Shown in pieces: positions 39,200 through 49,164 of a stretch of 64,000 nucleotides of DNA (positions are counted from its first letter, which is position 1; the number at the start of each line of letters is the position of its first letter). Where the stretch lies: NCBI GenBank assembly GCA_020832445.1, contig JAFIEO010000022.1, positions 84,483-148,482 of the forward strand, in the 5' to 3' direction. Below the pieces are notes generated by a model, which worked only from the letters and a program-made list of their open reading frames with translations, ran no database searches and had not been told where the DNA came from. Source of the DNA: Paracoccaceae bacterium (GTDB lineage: Bacteria; Pseudomonadota; Alphaproteobacteria; Rhodobacterales; Rhodobacteraceae). A program made the position numbers and the translations under genes.

Positions 39200-40270
39200 A
39201 TGCGTCTTCCAATTGTCTTTGCCTGCACCTTGCTGGCATCCGCCCCGCTTGCTGCCGATCCGATCAGCTTTACCGACCATGAAGGCCGCGAAGTCACACT
39301 GCCCGCGCCCGCGCAGCGGATCGCGTCAATTCCCATCCCCATGGCATCGACCCTGATTGCCATTGACGGCGCGACCGATCGTCTGGTGGGGATGAACCCG
39401 ACCGCGAAATCCGCCATCATGGAAGGTATTCTTGGGCGGATATTCCCTGAAGCGCGCGACATCCCGTCAGACATTACCGCGCCCAACTTCATCCCCAATG
39501 TAGAAGAACTGGCGCAGGTCAACCCCGAACTGGTCATCCAATGGGCCGGACGCGGGCCGGACTATATCGACCCGATCACCAACGCGGGCCTGAACCTGAT
39601 GACAATCCGCTACGGGTCCGAGGAGTTGACGCGCGAATATATGACCATGGCCGCAACCGCGATGGGCAGGCCGGAACGGATTGAGCCGCTGATCGAATGG
39701 CGCGCGGATGTGCAGGCCGACATGGAAGCGCGCACCGCCGGTCTGGCGGATGAGGACCGCCCCAGCGTGCTGTACCTGCTGCGCGCCATGGACAACCTGC
39801 GCGCGTCAGGAACCGAAGACAACTATAACGCATGGTATCATATTCTGGCCGGTGGCCGGAACGCGGCTGAAGACATGGTCGGCGGTAGGGCGGATATAAA
39901 TGTTGAACAGGTTGCAACATGGAACCCTGATGTCATCTTCCTGAATTCATTCGAGGCTGATCTGACGCTTGATCGCATCATGAACGACCCGATCCTGTCG
40001 CTGACCAATGCGGCACAGAACGGGCGCGTCTACAAAATGCCGCTTGGCGGCTATCGCTGGGACCCGCCCAATCAGGAAAGCCCGCTGACATGGATGTGGA
40101 CCGCAAACCTGCTGCACCCCGATGTGTTTGATTATGACCTGCGTGCGGAAATGCGCACAGCCTATCAGGTGCTGTATGGCCATGACCTGAGCGATGCGGA
40201 TATCGACGAAATCCTGTGGATGGACATGCAGGGCGGTCAGGCAAACTACGCGCAATTCGCAGCCCCATGA
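39200..40270 (+). CDS. FecB/BtuF-type periplasmic binding protein
   Basis: 356 residues with a signal peptide (MRLPIVFACTLLASAPLAADP). The class III periplasmic-binding fold is recognisable: ITDHEGREVTLP-like opening (FTDHEGREVTLPAPAQRIAS), VDELAQVNPELVIQWAG-like segment (NVEELAQVNPELVIQW) and the C-terminal GRVYKMPLGGYRWDPP. Proteins of this cluster bind iron-siderophores, haem, cobalamin or oxyanions (the MolA type) for FecCD permeases. Here GGYRWDPPNQESPLTWMW is typical of the metal/oxyanion branch. The gene starts a five-gene operon with ATGA overlaps. Substrate is not determined by the sequence. Confidence 0.85.
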   Translation: MRLPIVFACTLLASAPLAADPISFTDHEGREVTLPAPAQRIASIPIPMASTLIAIDGATDRLVGMNPTAKSAIMEGILGRIFPEARDIPSDITAPNFIPNVEELAQVNPELVIQWAGRGPDYIDPITNAGLNLMTIRYGSEELTREYMTMAATAMGRPERIEPLIEWRADVQADMEARTAGLADEDRPSVLYLLRAMDNLRASGTEDNYNAWYHILAGGRNAAEDMVGGRADINVEQVATWNPDVIFLNSFEADLTLDRIMNDPILSLTNAAQNGRVYKMPLGGYRWDPPNQESPLTWMWTANLLHPDVFDYDLRAEMRTAYQVLYGHDLSDADIDEILWMDMQGGQANYAQFAAP

Positions 40271-41319
40271 GTGTTGCACTGGATCAGGCCCCAAGGCGCG
40301 CGCGACTTGCGCTGCGCCTTGGGGTGTTTCCCGCGATGGTGGCATGTCTGGTGCTGGCCATGCTGTATTCCATCAGCGCCGGACGTTTTGAGGTGCCCTG
40401 GACAAGGGTCGTGGAAATCCTGTGGGCACGGGTCTGGGACTTGTCGGGCAGCGCGGACACCATGGACGAACGCATTGTCGAATTGGTGCGCCTGCCGCGT
40501 GTGCTGCTGGCCGCCCTGTCGGGGGCCGCGCTGGCCGTGGGCGGGGCCGCATTGCAAGGCGTGTTCCGCAACCCGCTGGTCAGCCCGCAAGTGCTGGGCA
40601 TCAGCCAGGGCGGGGCCTTTGGCGGGGCGCTGGCAATCCTGCTGGGCTTTCACGGGGTGGTGCTGCTGGGCATGTCGTTTGTCTTCGGTCTGGTGGCGCT
40701 GGTACTGGTGGGGCTGTTGGCCCATATCAATGGCCGGACAGAGGTTCTGACCGTCATCCTTGCGGGCATGATTGTGGGGGCTTTCTTTGCTGCATTGGTA
40801 TCGGTGCTGCAATTTCTGGCGGACCCCAATTCGTCCCTGCCTGCGATTGTCTATTGGCTGATGGGGTCATTCTCGACGGCGACATGGGCGCGGCTGGGAC
40901 TGGCAGTGCCCGGTATGGCGCTGGGACTGGCGCTTGTATGGTCGCTGCGCTACCGGCTGAACCTGCTGGCGCTGGAGGAGGCAGAGGCGCGTTCCTTGGG
41001 TGTGAACCCTGACCGCGAACGCTGGTTCATCTTCATTGCCGCCACGATGATGACCGGCACATCTGTTGCCGTGGCGGGCGTGATTGGCTGGATCGGCCTT
41101 GTGGTGCCCCATGCCGCGCGCCTGATCGTGGGCGAGGATCACCGCCGCCTTATCCCCGCATCGGCGCTGTTGGGCGCGGCCTATCTGGTGCTGATCGACA
41201 CGCTGGCACGCACGCTGACAGCCGCAGAAATACCGCTGGGCGTGTTGACTGCGCTGATCGGTGCGCCGGTCTTTGCGGTGCTGTTGCGCCAGCATTTCAA
41301 ACGCGCGTGGCACGCATGA
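40267..41319 (+). CDS. FecCD/BtuC-type ABC transporter permease
   Basis: 350 residues from the ATG at 40267 overlapping the binding-protein stop; the track start is inside that gene. Ten helices of the type II importer fold are present, with family motifs RLPRVLLAALSGAALAVGGAALQG, NPLVSPQVLGISQGGAFG, the coupling region near LEEAEARSLGVNPDRERW, and GVIGWIGLVVPHAARLIVGEDHR. It forms the translocation path for the FecB-type substrate. The final four bases overlap the ATPase start. Confidence 0.92.
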   Translation: MSVALDQAPRRARLALRLGVFPAMVACLVLAMLYSISAGRFEVPWTRVVEILWARVWDLSGSADTMDERIVELVRLPRVLLAALSGAALAVGGAALQGVFRNPLVSPQVLGISQGGAFGGALAILLGFHGVVLLGMSFVFGLVALVLVGLLAHINGRTEVLTVILAGMIVGAFFAALVSVLQFLADPNSSLPAIVYWLMGSFSTATWARLGLAVPGMALGLALVWSLRYRLNLLALEEAEARSLGVNPDRERWFIFIAATMMTGTSVAVAGVIGWIGLVVPHAARLIVGEDHRRLIPASALLGAAYLVLIDTLARTLTAAEIPLGVLTALIGAPVFAVLLRQHFKRAWHA

Positions 41320-42074
41320 TCGGGGTGTCGCAAGCAAGCCTGCGCTTTGGCGCGCTGCGGGTGTTCGCGGGGCTGTCGATTGACGTGCCGCTGGGGCGCA
41401 CGACCGCCATTCTGGGGCCGAACGGGCGCGGCAAGACAACTTTATTGCGCAGCATTCTGGGGTTTCAGCCACTGGATCAGGGCCGCCGTCACGCGCCCGC
41501 CATTGTGGGCTATGTGCCCCAGCACGGCGCATCACAGGCGAAACTTTCGGGGCTGGATGTGGTGACAATGGGCCGCGCAGCGCGGCTGGGCCTGTTTGGC
41601 CAGCCCGGACCGGATGATACGAAAGCCGCACACGCGGCACTGGTGCAGGTGGGCGCGTGTTCGCTGTCGGATTTGCGCTATGACCGCATGTCGGGTGGCC
41701 AACGCCAGATGATCCTGATTGCCCGCGCGCTGGCCACCGGATCAGATGCGCTGGTGCTGGATGAACCGACATCCGCGCTGGATCTGGGCAATCAGGCGCG
41801 CACGCTTGCGCTGATTTCCACCCTGAACCGGGCGCGCGACCGGGCGATCGTGTTCACCACACATGACCCCAACCACGCGCTGGCCGTGGCCGATGATGTG
41901 GTGCTGATGATGCCGGGCGGCGGCGTGGTGCAGGGGCCGGTCGCGCAGATGATCACCCCTGATCTGATGGCCGAACTTTACGGCGTTCCCATGCATTGGG
42001 TGCGCCCTGACGGACCCCAAGGGCGCATCGCAATGCTGCCCGAATTCACAGGAAAGGACGCCCTATGCGCGTGA
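41316..42074 (+). CDS. FecE/BtuD-type ABC ATPase
   Basis: About 252 residues from the ATG at 41316, which overlaps the permease TGA; the track uses a GTG nine bases earlier. Walker A is GPNGRGKTT, the signature MSGGQRQMILIARAL and Walker B ALVLDEPTSALDLGNQ, with the H-loop in FTTHDPNHALAVADD. It powers the importer. The 3' end overlaps the next gene by ten bases, unusually far for a separate function, which supports joint expression of the amidotransferase-like and FmdE-like genes. Confidence 0.92.
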   Translation: MIGVSQASLRFGALRVFAGLSIDVPLGRTTAILGPNGRGKTTLLRSILGFQPLDQGRRHAPAIVGYVPQHGASQAKLSGLDVVTMGRAARLGLFGQPGPDDTKAAHAALVQVGACSLSDLRYDRMSGGQRQMILIARALATGSDALVLDEPTSALDLGNQARTLALISTLNRARDRAIVFTTHDPNHALAVADDVVLMMPGGGVVQGPVAQMITPDLMAELYGVPMHWVRPDGPQGRIAMLPEFTGKDALCA

Positions 42075-43360
42075 TCTGGCTGCATTCTGGCCATGGCCAG
42101 CCCCCCGAACCCGTAAGACAGGCCGAAGCGGCCGGACATGTGACAATCATTGCGCAAACCGACCTGACGGAAGCTGCGCTGCTGGCGCATCGCGGTTTGA
42201 TCACCGGAATGCTGCTTGATCAGGATGCCCTTATGGCCCTGCGCCCTGCCCTGTCACGGTTTCTGGATGCAGGCGGGCGCTGGGTGTTCAATGGCCATCT
42301 GGTCCGCCCACTGGTCGCGGGGTTGCAACCCTACCACCCCATCCCCACGCCCAAACGCGCCGATTTCACGCTGACTGCGCGGGTGGCGCATCCGGTCTTT
42401 GCGGGCTTTCAGTTGAAAGAACTGGAAGCCAACAAGGGTGTTGCGGGCTTTTACGGGCGCGGGGCCAATCCGCCCCCCTCGGGCGCGGTGGTGTTGAACA
42501 CGCTTGGCGACACTGTGCCGGTCGACTGGGTCTGGCACCGGCCCGGCGGGGGCGCGATTTTCAGCCATGCGGGCAATGATCTGGCGCAGATCGCCACAAT
42601 GCACAAGATCGGCGCGCGGGTCTGGGCCAACCTGATCGTCTGGGCGGGGGGCGGTGCGTGCGTTTCAGATACTGCCCCGCGTGTGGCCACACCACCTGAT
42701 GCGCGCGCCTTCACCACGCCCGCGCGCCCGCGCGATACCGGCAATGCCCCGCGCCTGATTGCCACGAATGCGGGCACCTACTACCAGATCCAGACGCTTG
42801 AAGGGCCACGCTACCGCGACAGTTTCGATCTGGTGATCGCACCTGAACAGATTGGCGCGACCCTGTTGCCGGAAGATGTGCTGTTTGTGACCTGTCGCAC
42901 CCCGCCGCAACGCATGATTGCCCAGCGCGGGTTGCTGGCCGCGCATCTGGCGGCGGGCGGCACCATCATTGCCATGGGCGAAAGTCGCAGTGATTTGTGG
43001 CTGCCACATGTGGCCTTCACCCCCACAGATACGAATTGGTGGTGGTGGCTGACACCGGGGGCAAATTTGGGCGTGCAGATCGCATCTGCCCATCCGCTGC
43101 TGGACAACATGACCGACGCCGAGGTGACATGGCATCTGCACGGGTATTTCGACCCGCCCGCAGGCGCGCAGGTTCTGGTGCGCGATGGCGCGGGCCGGCC
43201 CATTGCCTATGACGACCGCACCAGCACGCCGGGGCGCATGATCATCACCTCGCTTGATCCCTGCTATCATCATGGAAGCCATTTCATGCCCGCAACCACA
43301 CGCTTTCTGGACCGCTTCCTGCCCAACCTGCGCCAGCTGACCCAACAGGTGCCCGCATGA
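42065..43360 (+). CDS. Unknown protein with amidotransferase-like repeats in the importer operon
   Basis: 431 residues, cytoplasmic (no signal). Two related halves are visible. The first contains ITGMLLDQDALMALRPALSR, then AGGRWVFNGHLVRPLVAG. The second contains VLFVTCRTPPQRMIAQRGLL, then AGGTIIAMGESRSDLWLPHV. The pattern of a strand, a Cys or Asp, a helix and AGG-strand-G resembles class I glutamine-amidotransferase/ThuA-like folds. A striking WWWWL cluster sits near residue 320, and HGYFDPPAGAQVLVRDG and SLDPCYHHGSHF near the end hold His/Cys residues that could bind metal. I cannot name the family. It overlaps the ATPase gene by ten bases and the FmdE-like gene by four. Confidence 0.6.
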   Translation: MRVIWLHSGHGQPPEPVRQAEAAGHVTIIAQTDLTEAALLAHRGLITGMLLDQDALMALRPALSRFLDAGGRWVFNGHLVRPLVAGLQPYHPIPTPKRADFTLTARVAHPVFAGFQLKELEANKGVAGFYGRGANPPPSGAVVLNTLGDTVPVDWVWHRPGGGAIFSHAGNDLAQIATMHKIGARVWANLIVWAGGGACVSDTAPRVATPPDARAFTTPARPRDTGNAPRLIATNAGTYYQIQTLEGPRYRDSFDLVIAPEQIGATLLPEDVLFVTCRTPPQRMIAQRGLLAAHLAAGGTIIAMGESRSDLWLPHVAFTPTDTNWWWWLTPGANLGVQIASAHPLLDNMTDAEVTWHLHGYFDPPAGAQVLVRDGAGRPIAYDDRTSTPGRMIITSLDPCYHHGSHFMPATTRFLDRFLPNLRQLTQQVPA

Positions 43361-43878
43361 GCACAGACAGCATCACAGTGTTGGAAAACGGACAGCCCCT
43401 GACCTTCGATCTGGCCATGTTGATGGCCTATCACGGCGGCGGGTTTCCCGGTGGCGTCGTGCACGGGCTGAAAGCGATGCAGGCGGGGTTTGCCACACGG
43501 GGAACCGGCCCGCTGCCACGGCGGGATATTCATGTGCTGACAGCCTTTGCCGGTCCCGGCGGGCGCGACGCGGTGGAATGCGTGACCCGCGCACTGACGG
43601 ATGGCCGCTATCAGGTGGATCGCAGTCTGGGCGGCAAGGACGTGACCAGCGACCCGCCCGGTCCGTATCTGTGGCGCTTCACCCTTGGCGACACAACAGT
43701 AGAGGTCACAATACGCCCCGGTCATGTGCGCCCCGAATTCGTGTCATTGGGCGCAATGCCCACGCGCAACGAGGCGGAAAACGCGCGTCTGGAGTTCCTG
43801 AAACGCGAAATGGCAGGCCGCCTGCTGCCCCTGCCCGCAACCGACATATATGAGGTGCGCAGCATTTCCGCAAAATAA
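43357..43878 (+). CDS. FmdE-like protein, last gene of the importer operon
   Basis: 173 residues. MLMAYHGGGFPGGVVHGLKAM (about residues 20-40) resembles the FHGHxCPGxxxG motif of FmdE-family proteins, the E subunit of molybdenum formylmethanofuran dehydrogenase and its bacterial relatives. A second block, GRDAVECVTRALTDGRYQVDRSLGGKD, matches the FmdE DAIQVLTGCT...G region. The Cys of CPG is Phe here, while the His is kept. FmdE-type proteins are linked with molybdenum/tungsten or other metal cofactor handling, function unproven. It ends an operon with a FecBCD-type importer, suggesting intake and delivery of a metal or metal-containing cofactor. Confidence 0.55.
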   Translation: MSTDSITVLENGQPLTFDLAMLMAYHGGGFPGGVVHGLKAMQAGFATRGTGPLPRRDIHVLTAFAGPGGRDAVECVTRALTDGRYQVDRSLGGKDVTSDPPGPYLWRFTLGDTTVEVTIRPGHVRPEFVSLGAMPTRNEAENARLEFLKREMAGRLLPLPATDIYEVRSISAK

Positions 43879-45449: not shown

Positions 45450-46379
45450 TCAGCGTCCGCGGATACGCGGATCAAGCGCGTCACGCAGTCCGTCACCAAT
45501 GTAGTTCACACTCAGCACCGTCAACGAGATGAGCACTCCCGGCCAGACCACACGCGACGGGTATTGCTCGATCCAGTCGCGCCCGTCATACAAAATACGC
45601 CCCCATGTGGGGAAATCCGGCGGGAAACCCAGCCCAAGAAAGGACAGTGCGGATTCGGTGATGATTGCTGTCGCAATTCCCAATGTCGCCGAAACCATGA
45701 TCGGGGACAGCACATTGGGCAGAACATGGCGGGTATTTATCCGCAAGGACGGTGTCCCGATCGAACGCGCCGCCAGCACGAATTCGCGTTCCTTCAGCGC
45801 CAGAACATCGCCACGCACAATGCGCGCTGTCTGCATCCAGCTGGTAATCGCGATGGCAAAGACAATCAGGGAAAAGACCCCCATCGCCTGCCCGAACATG
45901 GTTTCCAAAGGGTCGCGGAACAGGGCCACAAGTATCAGCAGCAACGGCAGCAGCGGCAGCGCCAGAAACAGATCGGTCAGCCGCATCAGCGGGCTGTCGA
46001 AAACCTTGAAATAGCCCGCCACCACCCCGATCAGCGTGCCGATCACCAGCCCCAGAAACATAGCCACCAGCCCGACCGCAACCGAAATACGGCCCCCATA
46101 CATCAGGCGCGCCAGCATATCGCGGCCCAGCTGGTCGGTGCCCAGCGGATAGGTCATGCTCATACCCTGATTGCGGGACCGGATGTTTATTGCGCCGGGG
46201 TCAACCTGCCATATCAACGGCCCGATAGTGACGAACACGATAATTGCCACAAACACGGCCAGACCAGCCAATGCGCCGCGATGGTATTTGAACTGGTCCC
46301 AGACATCCCACCATTGGTTGCGCGGCGGGCGAAAGGCCTCGTCAGGGGAAAAGGGTGCAGCCTTGGCGGTTTCAGTCAT
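45450..46379 (-). CDS. dppC: Peptide ABC transporter permease DppC/OppC type
   Basis: 309 residues starting MTETAKAAPFSPDEAFRPPRN at 46379, which overlaps the end of dppB; the track uses a start in dppB. Six helices follow the N-terminal cytoplasmic part, with family motifs YPLGTDQLGRDMLARLMYGGRIS, the EAA loop EREFVLAARSIGTPSLRINTRHVLPN, and LSFLGLGFPPDFPTWG. It pairs with DppB to carry di- or oligopeptides. It is the last gene of the dppD-F-A-B-C operon and has no visible terminator in the 67 bases before the convergent exported-protein gene. Confidence 0.92.
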   Translation of the reverse strand: MTETAKAAPFSPDEAFRPPRNQWWDVWDQFKYHRGALAGLAVFVAIIVFVTIGPLIWQVDPGAINIRSRNQGMSMTYPLGTDQLGRDMLARLMYGGRISVAVGLVAMFLGLVIGTLIGVVAGYFKVFDSPLMRLTDLFLALPLLPLLLILVALFRDPLETMFGQAMGVFSLIVFAIAITSWMQTARIVRGDVLALKEREFVLAARSIGTPSLRINTRHVLPNVLSPIMVSATLGIATAIITESALSFLGLGFPPDFPTWGRILYDGRDWIEQYPSRVVWPGVLISLTVLSVNYIGDGLRDALDPRIRGR

Positions 46380-47379
46380 ATCGGATTCTCGGGTCAAGGA
46401 TGCCATACAAGACATCTGCAATCAGGTTGAACAAAACGATCAGGATCGCGAAGATGAAGGTGATGGTCTGCACCATCGGCCAGTCGCTGACATAAATCGC
46501 GCGGATCAATGCATCCCCCAGACCGTTCACACGGAAAATCTGTTCGGTAATGATCGCGCCGGTAAAGACGGTCGGGATCCCGATGGCGATGACCGTCACC
46601 ACCGGAATCATGGAATTGCGCAGCACATGCACCAGCACGACAGTCTGTTCGCCCATTCCCTTGGACCGTGCCGTGCGCACATAATCCTGATTCAGGTTGT
46701 CCAGCATCGAGGCACGCATGAAGCGGCTGATCTGGCTGGCATTATACAGCGCCAGCACAGCGACCGGCATTGCGATCTGCTTGGCCTGAAACAGAAAGCT
46801 GTTCCAGTCGCGCACGACATGGGTGGTGTCATACATTGACGGAAACCAGCCCAGCGTGACCGAAAACAGCAGAATGAAAACAATGCCGGTAAAAAACGTG
46901 GGCACGGAAAAACCGACCATCGACACGAATGTGCCGACCTGATCGAACCAGCTGTATTGACGGTAGGCCGAAATCACGCCGATGGGCAGGGCAATCAGAA
47001 TGCCGAACAGATAGCCCAAGCCCACAACCCAAAGTGTCTGTGGCACGCGCTGAACCAGAATGTCGCCCACCGGCGAACGTGTCTGCCATGACAGAATGCG
47101 CGGGCCACCCGGGGCAATGTCCCAGCCCGTCAGCCCCGCCAGAATATGCAGCGGTTCGGTGATCACCGTCATCTGCAACCATTTAAAGTAGCGAACAAAA
47201 ACCGGCTCTCCCAACCCCAGAGATTGCCGTATTTGTTCGCGCACTTCCAGCGGGATGGTCAGCGGCAGGCTGCCCGTGGGGTCCCCCGGTGCCATATCCA
47301 GCATCAAGAACACGATCAGGCTGATAATCAGCACTGTCGGCACGGCAAAAGCCAGTCGGCGCAGCGTGTAGGAAAGCAT
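46372..47379 (-). CDS. dppB: Peptide ABC transporter permease DppB/OppB type
   Basis: 335 residues. The N-terminal helix LRRLAFAVPTVLIISLIVFLM is followed by the DppB/OppB signature APGDPTG and a loop of about 60 residues (RQSLGLGEPVFVRYFKW), then helices with the EAA loop NQDYVRTARSKGMGEQTVVLVHVLRNSM. The stop overlaps the dppC start by eight bases. It is 72 bases downstream of the substrate-binding protein gene. It forms the membrane channel with DppC. Confidence 0.92.
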   Translation of the reverse strand: MLSYTLRRLAFAVPTVLIISLIVFLMLDMAPGDPTGSLPLTIPLEVREQIRQSLGLGEPVFVRYFKWLQMTVITEPLHILAGLTGWDIAPGGPRILSWQTRSPVGDILVQRVPQTLWVVGLGYLFGILIALPIGVISAYRQYSWFDQVGTFVSMVGFSVPTFFTGIVFILLFSVTLGWFPSMYDTTHVVRDWNSFLFQAKQIAMPVAVLALYNASQISRFMRASMLDNLNQDYVRTARSKGMGEQTVVLVHVLRNSMIPVVTVIAIGIPTVFTGAIITEQIFRVNGLGDALIRAIYVSDWPMVQTITFIFAILIVLFNLIADVLYGILDPRIRYD

Positions 47380-47451
47380 GTGGTCCGCCTTGGTCAGTCA
47401 TGACGACCTGCCCCGCACAGGGCGCGGGACAGGTCAGGTATCAGTTCGGGA

Positions 47452-49164
47452 TCATTCTTCGATCCGGTACCATTCAGCCTGATTCCAATGCTCGGAATCC
47501 CAGACATTCATGACAATACCACCGACTGTGGTGGAAGCTGCCGACACACGACCGCGTGCGACCAGTGGCAGATGCGCGTAGTCCTGCACGAACATGTCAT
47601 TCAGCGCGATGACCAGTTCCTGACGGCGATCAGGATCGGCTTCGCGGTTCAACTCTGCCCACAGCTCGTCATATTCCGGGTTGCAGTAGCGGTTGATGTT
47701 CTGACCCTGCCACTGCGTCGAGGGCTGCGGTTCACGGCCACAGCGGCGCTGTTCCAGATGCGGTGTCGGGTCGGTGCCTTCAAACAGCGACGCATACATC
47801 TGTGCGTCGGCAAAGAATTTCAGATAGGTGTCGTTGCTGCCCGGGTCGGACCCGAAGAACACGCCAGCATCGATATTGCGCAAACGGGTATCAACCCCGA
47901 TTTCGCGCCAGTCGGCCTGAATAAGGGCCTGAAAGTCCTGACGCACAGCGTTGGTAGATGTCTGGAACAGCAATTCCAGCCGTTGACCGTCCTTTACACG
48001 GATGCCATCGGCACCGCGTTCCCAGCCTGCTTCGTCCAGCAATTCATTGGCGCGGTCAATGTCCTGCACAAGGCAGTTGTCATTATTCGGTGACGCCATG
48101 GCGGGCGGGGCCACGATGAAGTTACAGGTTGCCATGCCCATGGGCCCAAAGCCGATTTCGGTCAGCAATTCGCGGTCAATCGCGCGGCTTAGGGCCTCGC
48201 GCACGCGGATATCCGACAGGATGGGGTGCGGATGCTCGCGGGTTCCACGTTCGCCATCGGGCAGGTCGGGTGACGGGTCGGTGAAGTTCAGCTCGATCCG
48301 TTCCATCAGCGGGCCGAAATCGACCAGCAATTCGCCGCGCCCGCCAGCTTCCATCTGCTCGATCACCTCGGGGGCAAGTTGCAGGTTCCAGGCGTAGTCC
48401 ATCTCGCCTGTCTGGAACACGGCGCGGGCCGCGCCCATGGCATCGCCACCACCGGCCCAGGTGACCGTTTCAAAATAGGGCTGGGTCGGAACGCGGTAGT
48501 TTTCATTCGCCACAAATTCGATCACGTCATTGGGACGGAAGTTCGACACCACATAGGGACCGGTCCCGATGGGCGCAAAGTTTGCGTCGGTGCATTCGGG
48601 CGCGCGGGCGCCAAGGCAGTCCTGAAACTGCGCCCGCTGGATGATAACCGAACCCGCGCCCACAAAGGGCAGATAGGGGTTTGGCGTGACATCTTCGAAA
48701 TGAACAGTGACCGTCAGATCGTCCACCGCCTCGACCTGCTCGATCCCGGCATAGCGGTCGCGGTAGGAACAGCCGCCTTCGGGATGGGTGCAATATTCAT
48801 AGCTGAACACCACATCAGCCGAAGTCACCGGCGTGCCATCGGACCACAAAAGCCCTTCGGTAAGTTTCCATGTGATCGATTTCAGATCTTCCGCGACACC
48901 GCCATTTTCCAGCGTCGGGATTTCATCGACCAGCCACGGCGTCAACTCGCCCAGATTGTCAAAGCGCGCCAGCGGCTCCAGCACGACCGAGGCCGCGTTC
49001 ATTTCCTTGGTGCCGCCCGACAGATAGGGGTTCATCGTGGACACGGCTTGCCAGTAGATGATGTTCAGATGGCCCGATGATCCGCGCTCTCGCTCTGCCA
49101 TGGCAGAAGCCGGGGCCAGCACAAGGGCGGCGGCCGTGCCCAGAAGGACTGTTCTTGTAGTCAT
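47452..49164 (-). CDS. dppA: Peptide-binding protein DppA/OppA type
   Basis: 570 residues of the family 5 extracellular binding fold, with a signal peptide (MTTRTVLLGTAAALVLAPASAMA). Motifs include WKLTEGLLWSDGTPVTSADVVFSYEY, IGTGPYVVSNFRPNDVIEFVANENY, and DIRVREALSRAIDRELLTEIGF. It delivers peptides or similar ligands to DppBC. The ATG overlaps the stop of dppF. A binding protein located inside the operon, between the ATPase and permease genes, departs from the usual dppABCDF order. Confidence 0.92.
   Translation of the reverse strand: MTTRTVLLGTAAALVLAPASAMAERERGSSGHLNIIYWQAVSTMNPYLSGGTKEMNAASVVLEPLARFDNLGELTPWLVDEIPTLENGGVAEDLKSITWKLTEGLLWSDGTPVTSADVVFSYEYCTHPEGGCSYRDRYAGIEQVEAVDDLTVTVHFEDVTPNPYLPFVGAGSVIIQRAQFQDCLGARAPECTDANFAPIGTGPYVVSNFRPNDVIEFVANENYRVPTQPYFETVTWAGGGDAMGAARAVFQTGEMDYAWNLQLAPEVIEQMEAGGRGELLVDFGPLMERIELNFTDPSPDLPDGERGTREHPHPILSDIRVREALSRAIDRELLTEIGFGPMGMATCNFIVAPPAMASPNNDNCLVQDIDRANELLDEAGWERGADGIRVKDGQRLELLFQTSTNAVRQDFQALIQADWREIGVDTRLRNIDAGVFFGSDPGSNDTYLKFFADAQMYASLFEGTDPTPHLEQRRCGREPQPSTQWQGQNINRYCNPEYDELWAELNREADPDRRQELVIALNDMFVQDYAHLPLVARGRVSAASTTVGGIVMNVWDSEHWNQAEWYRIEE

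Follow-up and report, generated by a model that had tools for sequence, protein, structure and literature searches.

What becomes of a ligand once an importer has brought it into the bacterial cytoplasm, and could two genes of no assigned family take part in this step? The question is raised by a locus in a 64,000-nucleotide stretch of the genome of a Paracoccaceae bacterium (hereafter, the window), where three importer genes are followed by two further genes, whose products we call G4 and G5. To our knowledge, apart from a few siderophore esterases and reductases, little is known about the fate of a chelate after its delivery by an ABC importer. A preliminary description of this DNA had proposed an undescribed metal or metal-cofactor uptake and delivery module, with an emphasis on molybdenum and tungsten. 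This interpretation is partly supported by our analysis, i.e., the folds, the importer class, and the linkage of the genes stand, while the molybdenum and tungsten emphasis does not. Of the two outcomes that the description named as counting against it, folds unrelated to FmdE and amidotransferases or a lack of conservation of the last two genes with the importer, neither was observed.

A Five-Gene Operon

The five open reading frames were all confirmed in the window; they lie on the + strand, one behind another with overlapping ends. The first encodes a class III binding protein of 356 amino acids with a signal peptide (39200..40270; Peripla_BP_2, PF01497, 4e-16), and the second, a FecCD/BtuC-type permease (40267..41319; PF01032, 6e-88). 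The permease start at ATG 40267 creates a 4-base ATGA overlap with the binding-protein gene, an in-frame GTG at 40216 being also possible. The third encodes a FecE/BtuD-type ABC ATPase (41307..42074; PF00005, ABC_tran, 6e-21), listed with a GTG start at 41307; the alternative ATG at 41316 leaves a 4-base overlap with the permease gene. G4, of 431 amino acids (42065..43360), starts 10 bases before the end of the ATPase gene, and G5, of 173 amino acids (43357..43878), 4 bases before the end of G4. The five-gene layout and the overlaps of 4, 4, 10, and 4 bases first reported for this locus hold, given the inner starts at 40267 and 41316.

Downstream of G5, an acetyltransferase gene starts from about 43900 and is not common to the sampled relatives. 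Further downstream, on the - strand (45450-49164), lies a separate dipeptide/oligopeptide-type importer (a binding protein and two permeases), with no linkage to G4-G5 in the sampled relatives. A comparison of ten upstream regions for iron, zinc, nickel, or molybdenum boxes and for palindromes revealed no conserved site; a TGA-N9-TCA match at a similar position is common to two close relatives only. The Rfam search upstream of the operon gave no match, and the promoter and terminator scan of the locus did no better than shuffled sequences. The window locus itself yielded no TonB receptor, no siderophore gene, and no metal-regulator box, and the operon contains no catabolic partner gene.

A FecBCD-Type Importer

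The binding protein, the FecCD permease, and the ABC ATPase all exceed their Pfam cut-offs and are encoded contiguously, as expected of a FecBCD-type importer and as the preliminary description had it. Members of this class are known carriers of metal chelates, cobalamin, haem, and molybdate. The window operon shares with the type II importers FecBCD, BtuFCD, and HmuTUV a binding protein, a FecCD permease, and an ATPase, but it adds two conserved genes, the products of which are predicted to be cytoplasmic.

None of the characterised importer subfamilies of NCBIfam reaches its cut-off for any of the three proteins. The best model for the permease is BtuC (PRK09535), with 247 bits against a cut-off of 461; the closest models are F420-0/zinc/B12-type ATPases for the ATPase and an archaeal PGF-CTERM protein for the binding protein, all of these matches being below cut-off. 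Among solved structures, a PDB sequence search places 4ovk (5e-54), titled just "periplasmic binding protein", nearest to the binding protein; HI_1472/MolA (3psa, 5e-9) and BtuF (about 1e-3) follow at a distance. MolBCA (HI1470-1472) is a three-protein system of the same importer class, with MolA distantly related to the window binding protein, whereas the window system has five genes and no molybdenum link was found for it. The emphasis on molybdenum and tungsten is thus not sustained: no NCBIfam model for such a system is reached, the 4ovk match far exceeds that to MolA, and G5 lacks three of the four metal ligands of FmdE. Nothing supports molybdate or tungstate in particular as the imported ligand.

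G4, a Pair of Amidotransferase-Fold Halves

Since neither G4 nor G5 gave any match in direct Pfam or NCBIfam searches, relatives of both were collected; their profiles found nothing meaningful among PDB sequences. The G4 model (AF2, pLDDT 80.7) matches 3fij (8e-6), 2a9v (1e-4), and 6vtv (2e-3) by Foldseek against the PDB, i.e., an amidotransferase-like fold, and its two halves (residues 1-205, 42065..42679, and residues 230-424, 42752..43336) are homologous to each other (hhalign, 96.2%, 2e-9). The two amidotransferase-like halves predicted earlier were therefore recovered, as was the tryptophan cluster, found as WWWW at residues 325-328. Another candidate relative, 5vug (Rv2277c), matched the single sequence at 0.003, a match not reproduced with the G4 profile.

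The fold of G4 is that of the class I glutamine amidotransferase-like clan (GMP synthase subunit A, PuuD, ThuA, DUF4159, GH42 domain), and weak Pfam matches of distant relatives link it to ThuA, DUF4159, and DUF4350. G4 differs from this clan by its paired halves, by motifs of its own, and by the nucleophile cysteine of the class I elbow, which is not conserved. The elbow position, as mapped via secondary structure, would be occupied by an invariant His78 in the N-half and by S, T, V, C, or a gap in the C-half. In the N-half, the invariant residues are DQ, GH, VAGF, and RG; in the C-half (alignment A2, 12 sequences), they are N, WWW, WHxHG, and LDPxxHxG..FMP. G4 carries no signal peptide and would be located in the cytoplasm.

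The two halves are not always fused. They form a single N-C protein in the window and in relatives such as L012, L009, L014, L050, L019, and L030, while the N-half is a separate gene in L010, L015, L021, L022, L023, L027, L028, L045, and L048, and the halves are two overlapping or adjoining genes in L010, L015, L022, L028, L045, and L048. In Rhizobium etli (L023, 7487-8770), a 427-amino-acid protein located downstream of a FecBCD importer presents the halves in the reverse order, C-N, beside separate genes for the N-half (G4N) and the C-half (G4C); a similar pairing of a FecBCD importer with a gene for about 430 amino acids occurs in Shinella, Rhizobium BT03, and Aliivibrio. Fused in either order or separate, the halves are therefore likely to act as a pair.

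G5, a Divergent FmdE-Fold Protein

The resemblance of the last protein of the operon to FmdE was confirmed at the level of the fold. The G5 model (AF2 with 15 relatives, pLDDT 93.2) has 2glz (1e-6) and 2gvi (1e-4) as its sole significant Foldseek matches in the PDB, the next, unrelated, being at 0.7. Profile-profile comparison by hhalign agrees, with probabilities of 97.9% and 96.8% against FmdE profiles from other genomes and 0.1% for unrelated control profiles. G5 itself has no PF02663 match, failing the Pfam gathering score of 22.9 bits, and three distant relatives reach 17.0-18.7 bits over the full profile (E 0.002-0.006), also below cut-off.

The FmdE metal site consists of His15, His17, Cys19, and Cys55 (2glz numbering; PMC2954224). 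G5 keeps the first histidine alone, as His26, and presents Gly28, Phe30, and Gly68 at the three other aligned positions. Hence, the FHGHxC motif of FmdE (PF02663; 2glz, 2gvi) reads YHGGGF in G5, which also differs by the absence of a zinc finger, while the fold, the profile match, and the linkage to transporters are common to both. With three of the four ligands lost, G5 is therefore an FmdE-fold relative without the standard FmdE metal site, predicted to be cytoplasmic.

Conserved Linkage and Separate Histories

All five genes occur together in 13 Alphaproteobacteria loci, so both last genes are conserved with the importer. The order binding protein, permease, ATPase, G4 (fused or split), G5 is found in the window, L012, L009, L014, L050, L019, L030, L010, L015, L045, L022, and L028; in L048, these genes are all present, the G4N, G4C, and G5 trio preceding the importer. 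This order is not due to chance, because it is retained even where the identity of the binding protein falls to 43%. The arrangement is rare: G5 matches were obtained in four of 296 genomes of the order (own genome and one weak match included), nine of 385 of the class, and four of 399 of the phylum (own genome included in both).

The importer and the two last genes have not evolved as one block. In L010 and L015, G5 is 66-70% identical to its window counterpart and the importer 42-51%, and these two loci are placed differently in the importer tree and in the G4-G5 tree. Each tree rejects the other (AU test, p 1e-7 and 1e-87); as these tests compare whole topologies, they tell that the histories of importer and cassette differ and do not give the number of swaps.

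A Cassette That Changes Importers

Relatives of G4 and G5 accompany importers of quite different build. In Paracoccaceae La6, G4N, G4C, and G5 occur with an Opp/Nik-type importer, and a DUF2478 gene, annotated as molybdate-related, follows G5. In Paenibacillus, the same three genes also stand with an Opp/Nik-type importer, whose binding protein matches the nickel protein NikA best (174 bits), then CntA. G4N and G4C follow an SsuABC-type importer in Chelatococcus and lie inside a PhnSTU/Fbp-like importer operon in the haloarchaeon Natribaculum. For the SsuABC-type importers that accompany cassette relatives, the SsuA family exceeds its cut-off. Overall, cassette relatives are found in Proteobacteria, Firmicutes, and, for the G4 part, Haloarchaea.

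In our reading, G4 and G5 make up a cytoplasmic cassette of a portable kind. It is not bound to importers of the FecBCD type, which had not been foreseen in the earlier reading of the locus. The company of importers of different build suggests that G4 and G5 work on what is imported and not on the transporter itself.

Some further arrangements were observed. The La6 operon (L021, 9584-13170) also comprises, alongside its Nik/Opp importer and G4N-G4C-G5 genes, a HupE/UreJ-type membrane protein in addition to the DUF2478 protein, and this company may point to nickel. On the E. coli plasmid pECOED (L025, 11995-15430), an SsuABC-type importer is flanked by two distant FmdE-like relatives of G5, the first of which occurs in at least six plasmids of E. 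coli. In another genome (G961; L054, 9565-10650), an Opp-type importer is followed by two G5-like genes in tandem.

Chelate and Phosphonate Contexts

Another unforeseen observation is that G5 shares an operon with the C-P lyase core. On plasmids of Labrenzia, Martelella, Rhizobium, Agrobacterium, Proteus, and Klebsiella (L016, L017, L018, L020, L030, L031), a FecBCD importer is followed by G5 and by phnGHIJKL; for Proteus, only the importer's ATPase gene lies within the stretch read. A LysR gene is found upstream wherever the stretch reaches that far, no phnM-like gene was seen in these plasmid stretches, and the plasmid PhnJ keeps the four cysteines found in the PhnJ of the genome studied here, which is encoded on another contig. 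In Agrobacterium vitis, a window-type operon and a phn-type operon adjoin. The window operon, in contrast to these plasmid operons, has no phn genes.

Other neighbors belong to metal uptake. The cassette operon stands next to TonB siderophore receptors in both Methylocystis and Methylosinus, accompanied in Methylocystis by HemP and IucA/IucC biosynthesis genes, and a TonB receptor lies upstream in Cupriavidus. It has also been reported that most FmdE-family genes adjoin metal-ion transporter genes (Axelrod et al. 2010, PMC2954224). Thus, the siderophore context in methanotrophs, together with the importer class, favors metal chelates, and the C-P lyase and SsuABC links favor phosphonate or sulfonate-type organic ligands. 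A chelate bearing phosphonate or sulfonate groups would satisfy both lines, which is speculation.

How Could G4 and G5 Act?

The explanation that we prefer, and to which we give about an even chance, is that G4 and G5 handle an imported metal chelate in the cytoplasm. The small ligand that the FecBCD-type importer would carry inside is most likely such a chelate. In the cytoplasm, G4, in effect a heterodimer within one chain, with two domains of amidotransferase fold and no catalytic cysteine, would probably form a ligand pocket from its invariant histidines and tryptophans (predicted to include His357, His359, His402, and the tryptophan cluster), and G5, as a putative FmdE-fold dimer that has lost most of the FmdE metal site, would probably be its partner. 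Together, they may receive, open, or dismantle the complex, then pass on the metal or the ligand; for a phosphonate ligand, which is the case of the plasmids, C-P lyase would act next. Several observations count against such chelate handling: SsuABC and the archaeal PhnSTU-like importers are related to carriers of sulfonates and phosphonates and not to those of chelates, G5 has lost three of the four metal ligands of FmdE, and the window locus is devoid of any TonB, siderophore, or metal-regulator element.

The same SsuABC-type and PhnSTU-like importers, carrying G4 or G5 relatives, would be explained if the imported substrate were an organic nutrient (a compound of the phosphonate, sulfonate, or polycarboxylate kind, metal-bound or metal-free) and G4-G5 were catabolic enzymes for which the metal is incidental. 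The place of G5 within phnGHIJKL operons of six plasmid genera, with a four-cysteine PhnJ, the LysR regulators, typical of catabolism, that adjoin several loci, and the weak kinship of G4 to ThuA, DUF4159, and DUF4350 agree with this. We nevertheless consider it rather unlikely, given the known substrates of the FecBCD class, the siderophore context in methanotrophs, and a window operon lacking a catabolic partner. G4 and G5 could also be regulators or assembly factors of an ordinary siderophore/B12-class importer rather than ligand handlers, in keeping with their constant linkage to importers; however, the permeases and ATPases that they accompany come from families with no kinship to one another, which makes specific binding to the importer unlikely, and we hold such a role to be improbable. 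Least probable of all, in our estimation, is a MolBCA-like importer of molybdate or tungstate with FmdE-related delivery to molybdenum enzymes. The FmdE fold of G5, the presence of HI_1472/MolA among the binding-protein matches, and the molybdate-annotated gene after G5 in La6 speak for it, but the MolA match is distant, the G5 metal site is lost, none of the examined loci has a molybdenum enzyme or cofactor gene beside the cassette, and an oxyanion is at odds with the swaps to NikA and SsuABC importers.

Novelty and Significance

The locus had been called undescribed, and this is true in part: the adjacency of FmdE and transporter genes was published in 2010 (PMC2954224), but we found no description, in the open-access literature, of the G4 pair, of importer swapping, or of the FecBCD-G5-phn operons. 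In the same literature, we found no paper joining FmdE with C-P lyase, and FmdE together with siderophore gave one match, on one-carbon metabolism in Pseudomonas putida. A paper on phn genes and glyphosate (PMC13054660) has no bearing on the G4-G5 cluster.

Beyond the preferred chelate handling, we tentatively propose, at somewhat less than an even chance, that G4 and G5 constitute an undescribed, importer-independent cassette of Proteobacteria, Firmicutes, and, for the G4 part, Haloarchaea, in which a pair of amidotransferase-fold domains devoid of the cysteine, together with a protein of FmdE fold, would open or dismantle imported ligands in the cytoplasm, be they metal chelates or compounds of phosphonate/sulfonate type, one branch feeding plasmid-borne C-P lyase via FecBCD uptake. 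Two proteins that keep company with importers from unrelated families mark a general post-uptake step. Their association, on mobile plasmids, with the C-P lyase core hints at an uptake route for phosphonates or metal-phosphonates that we did not find in the open-access literature.
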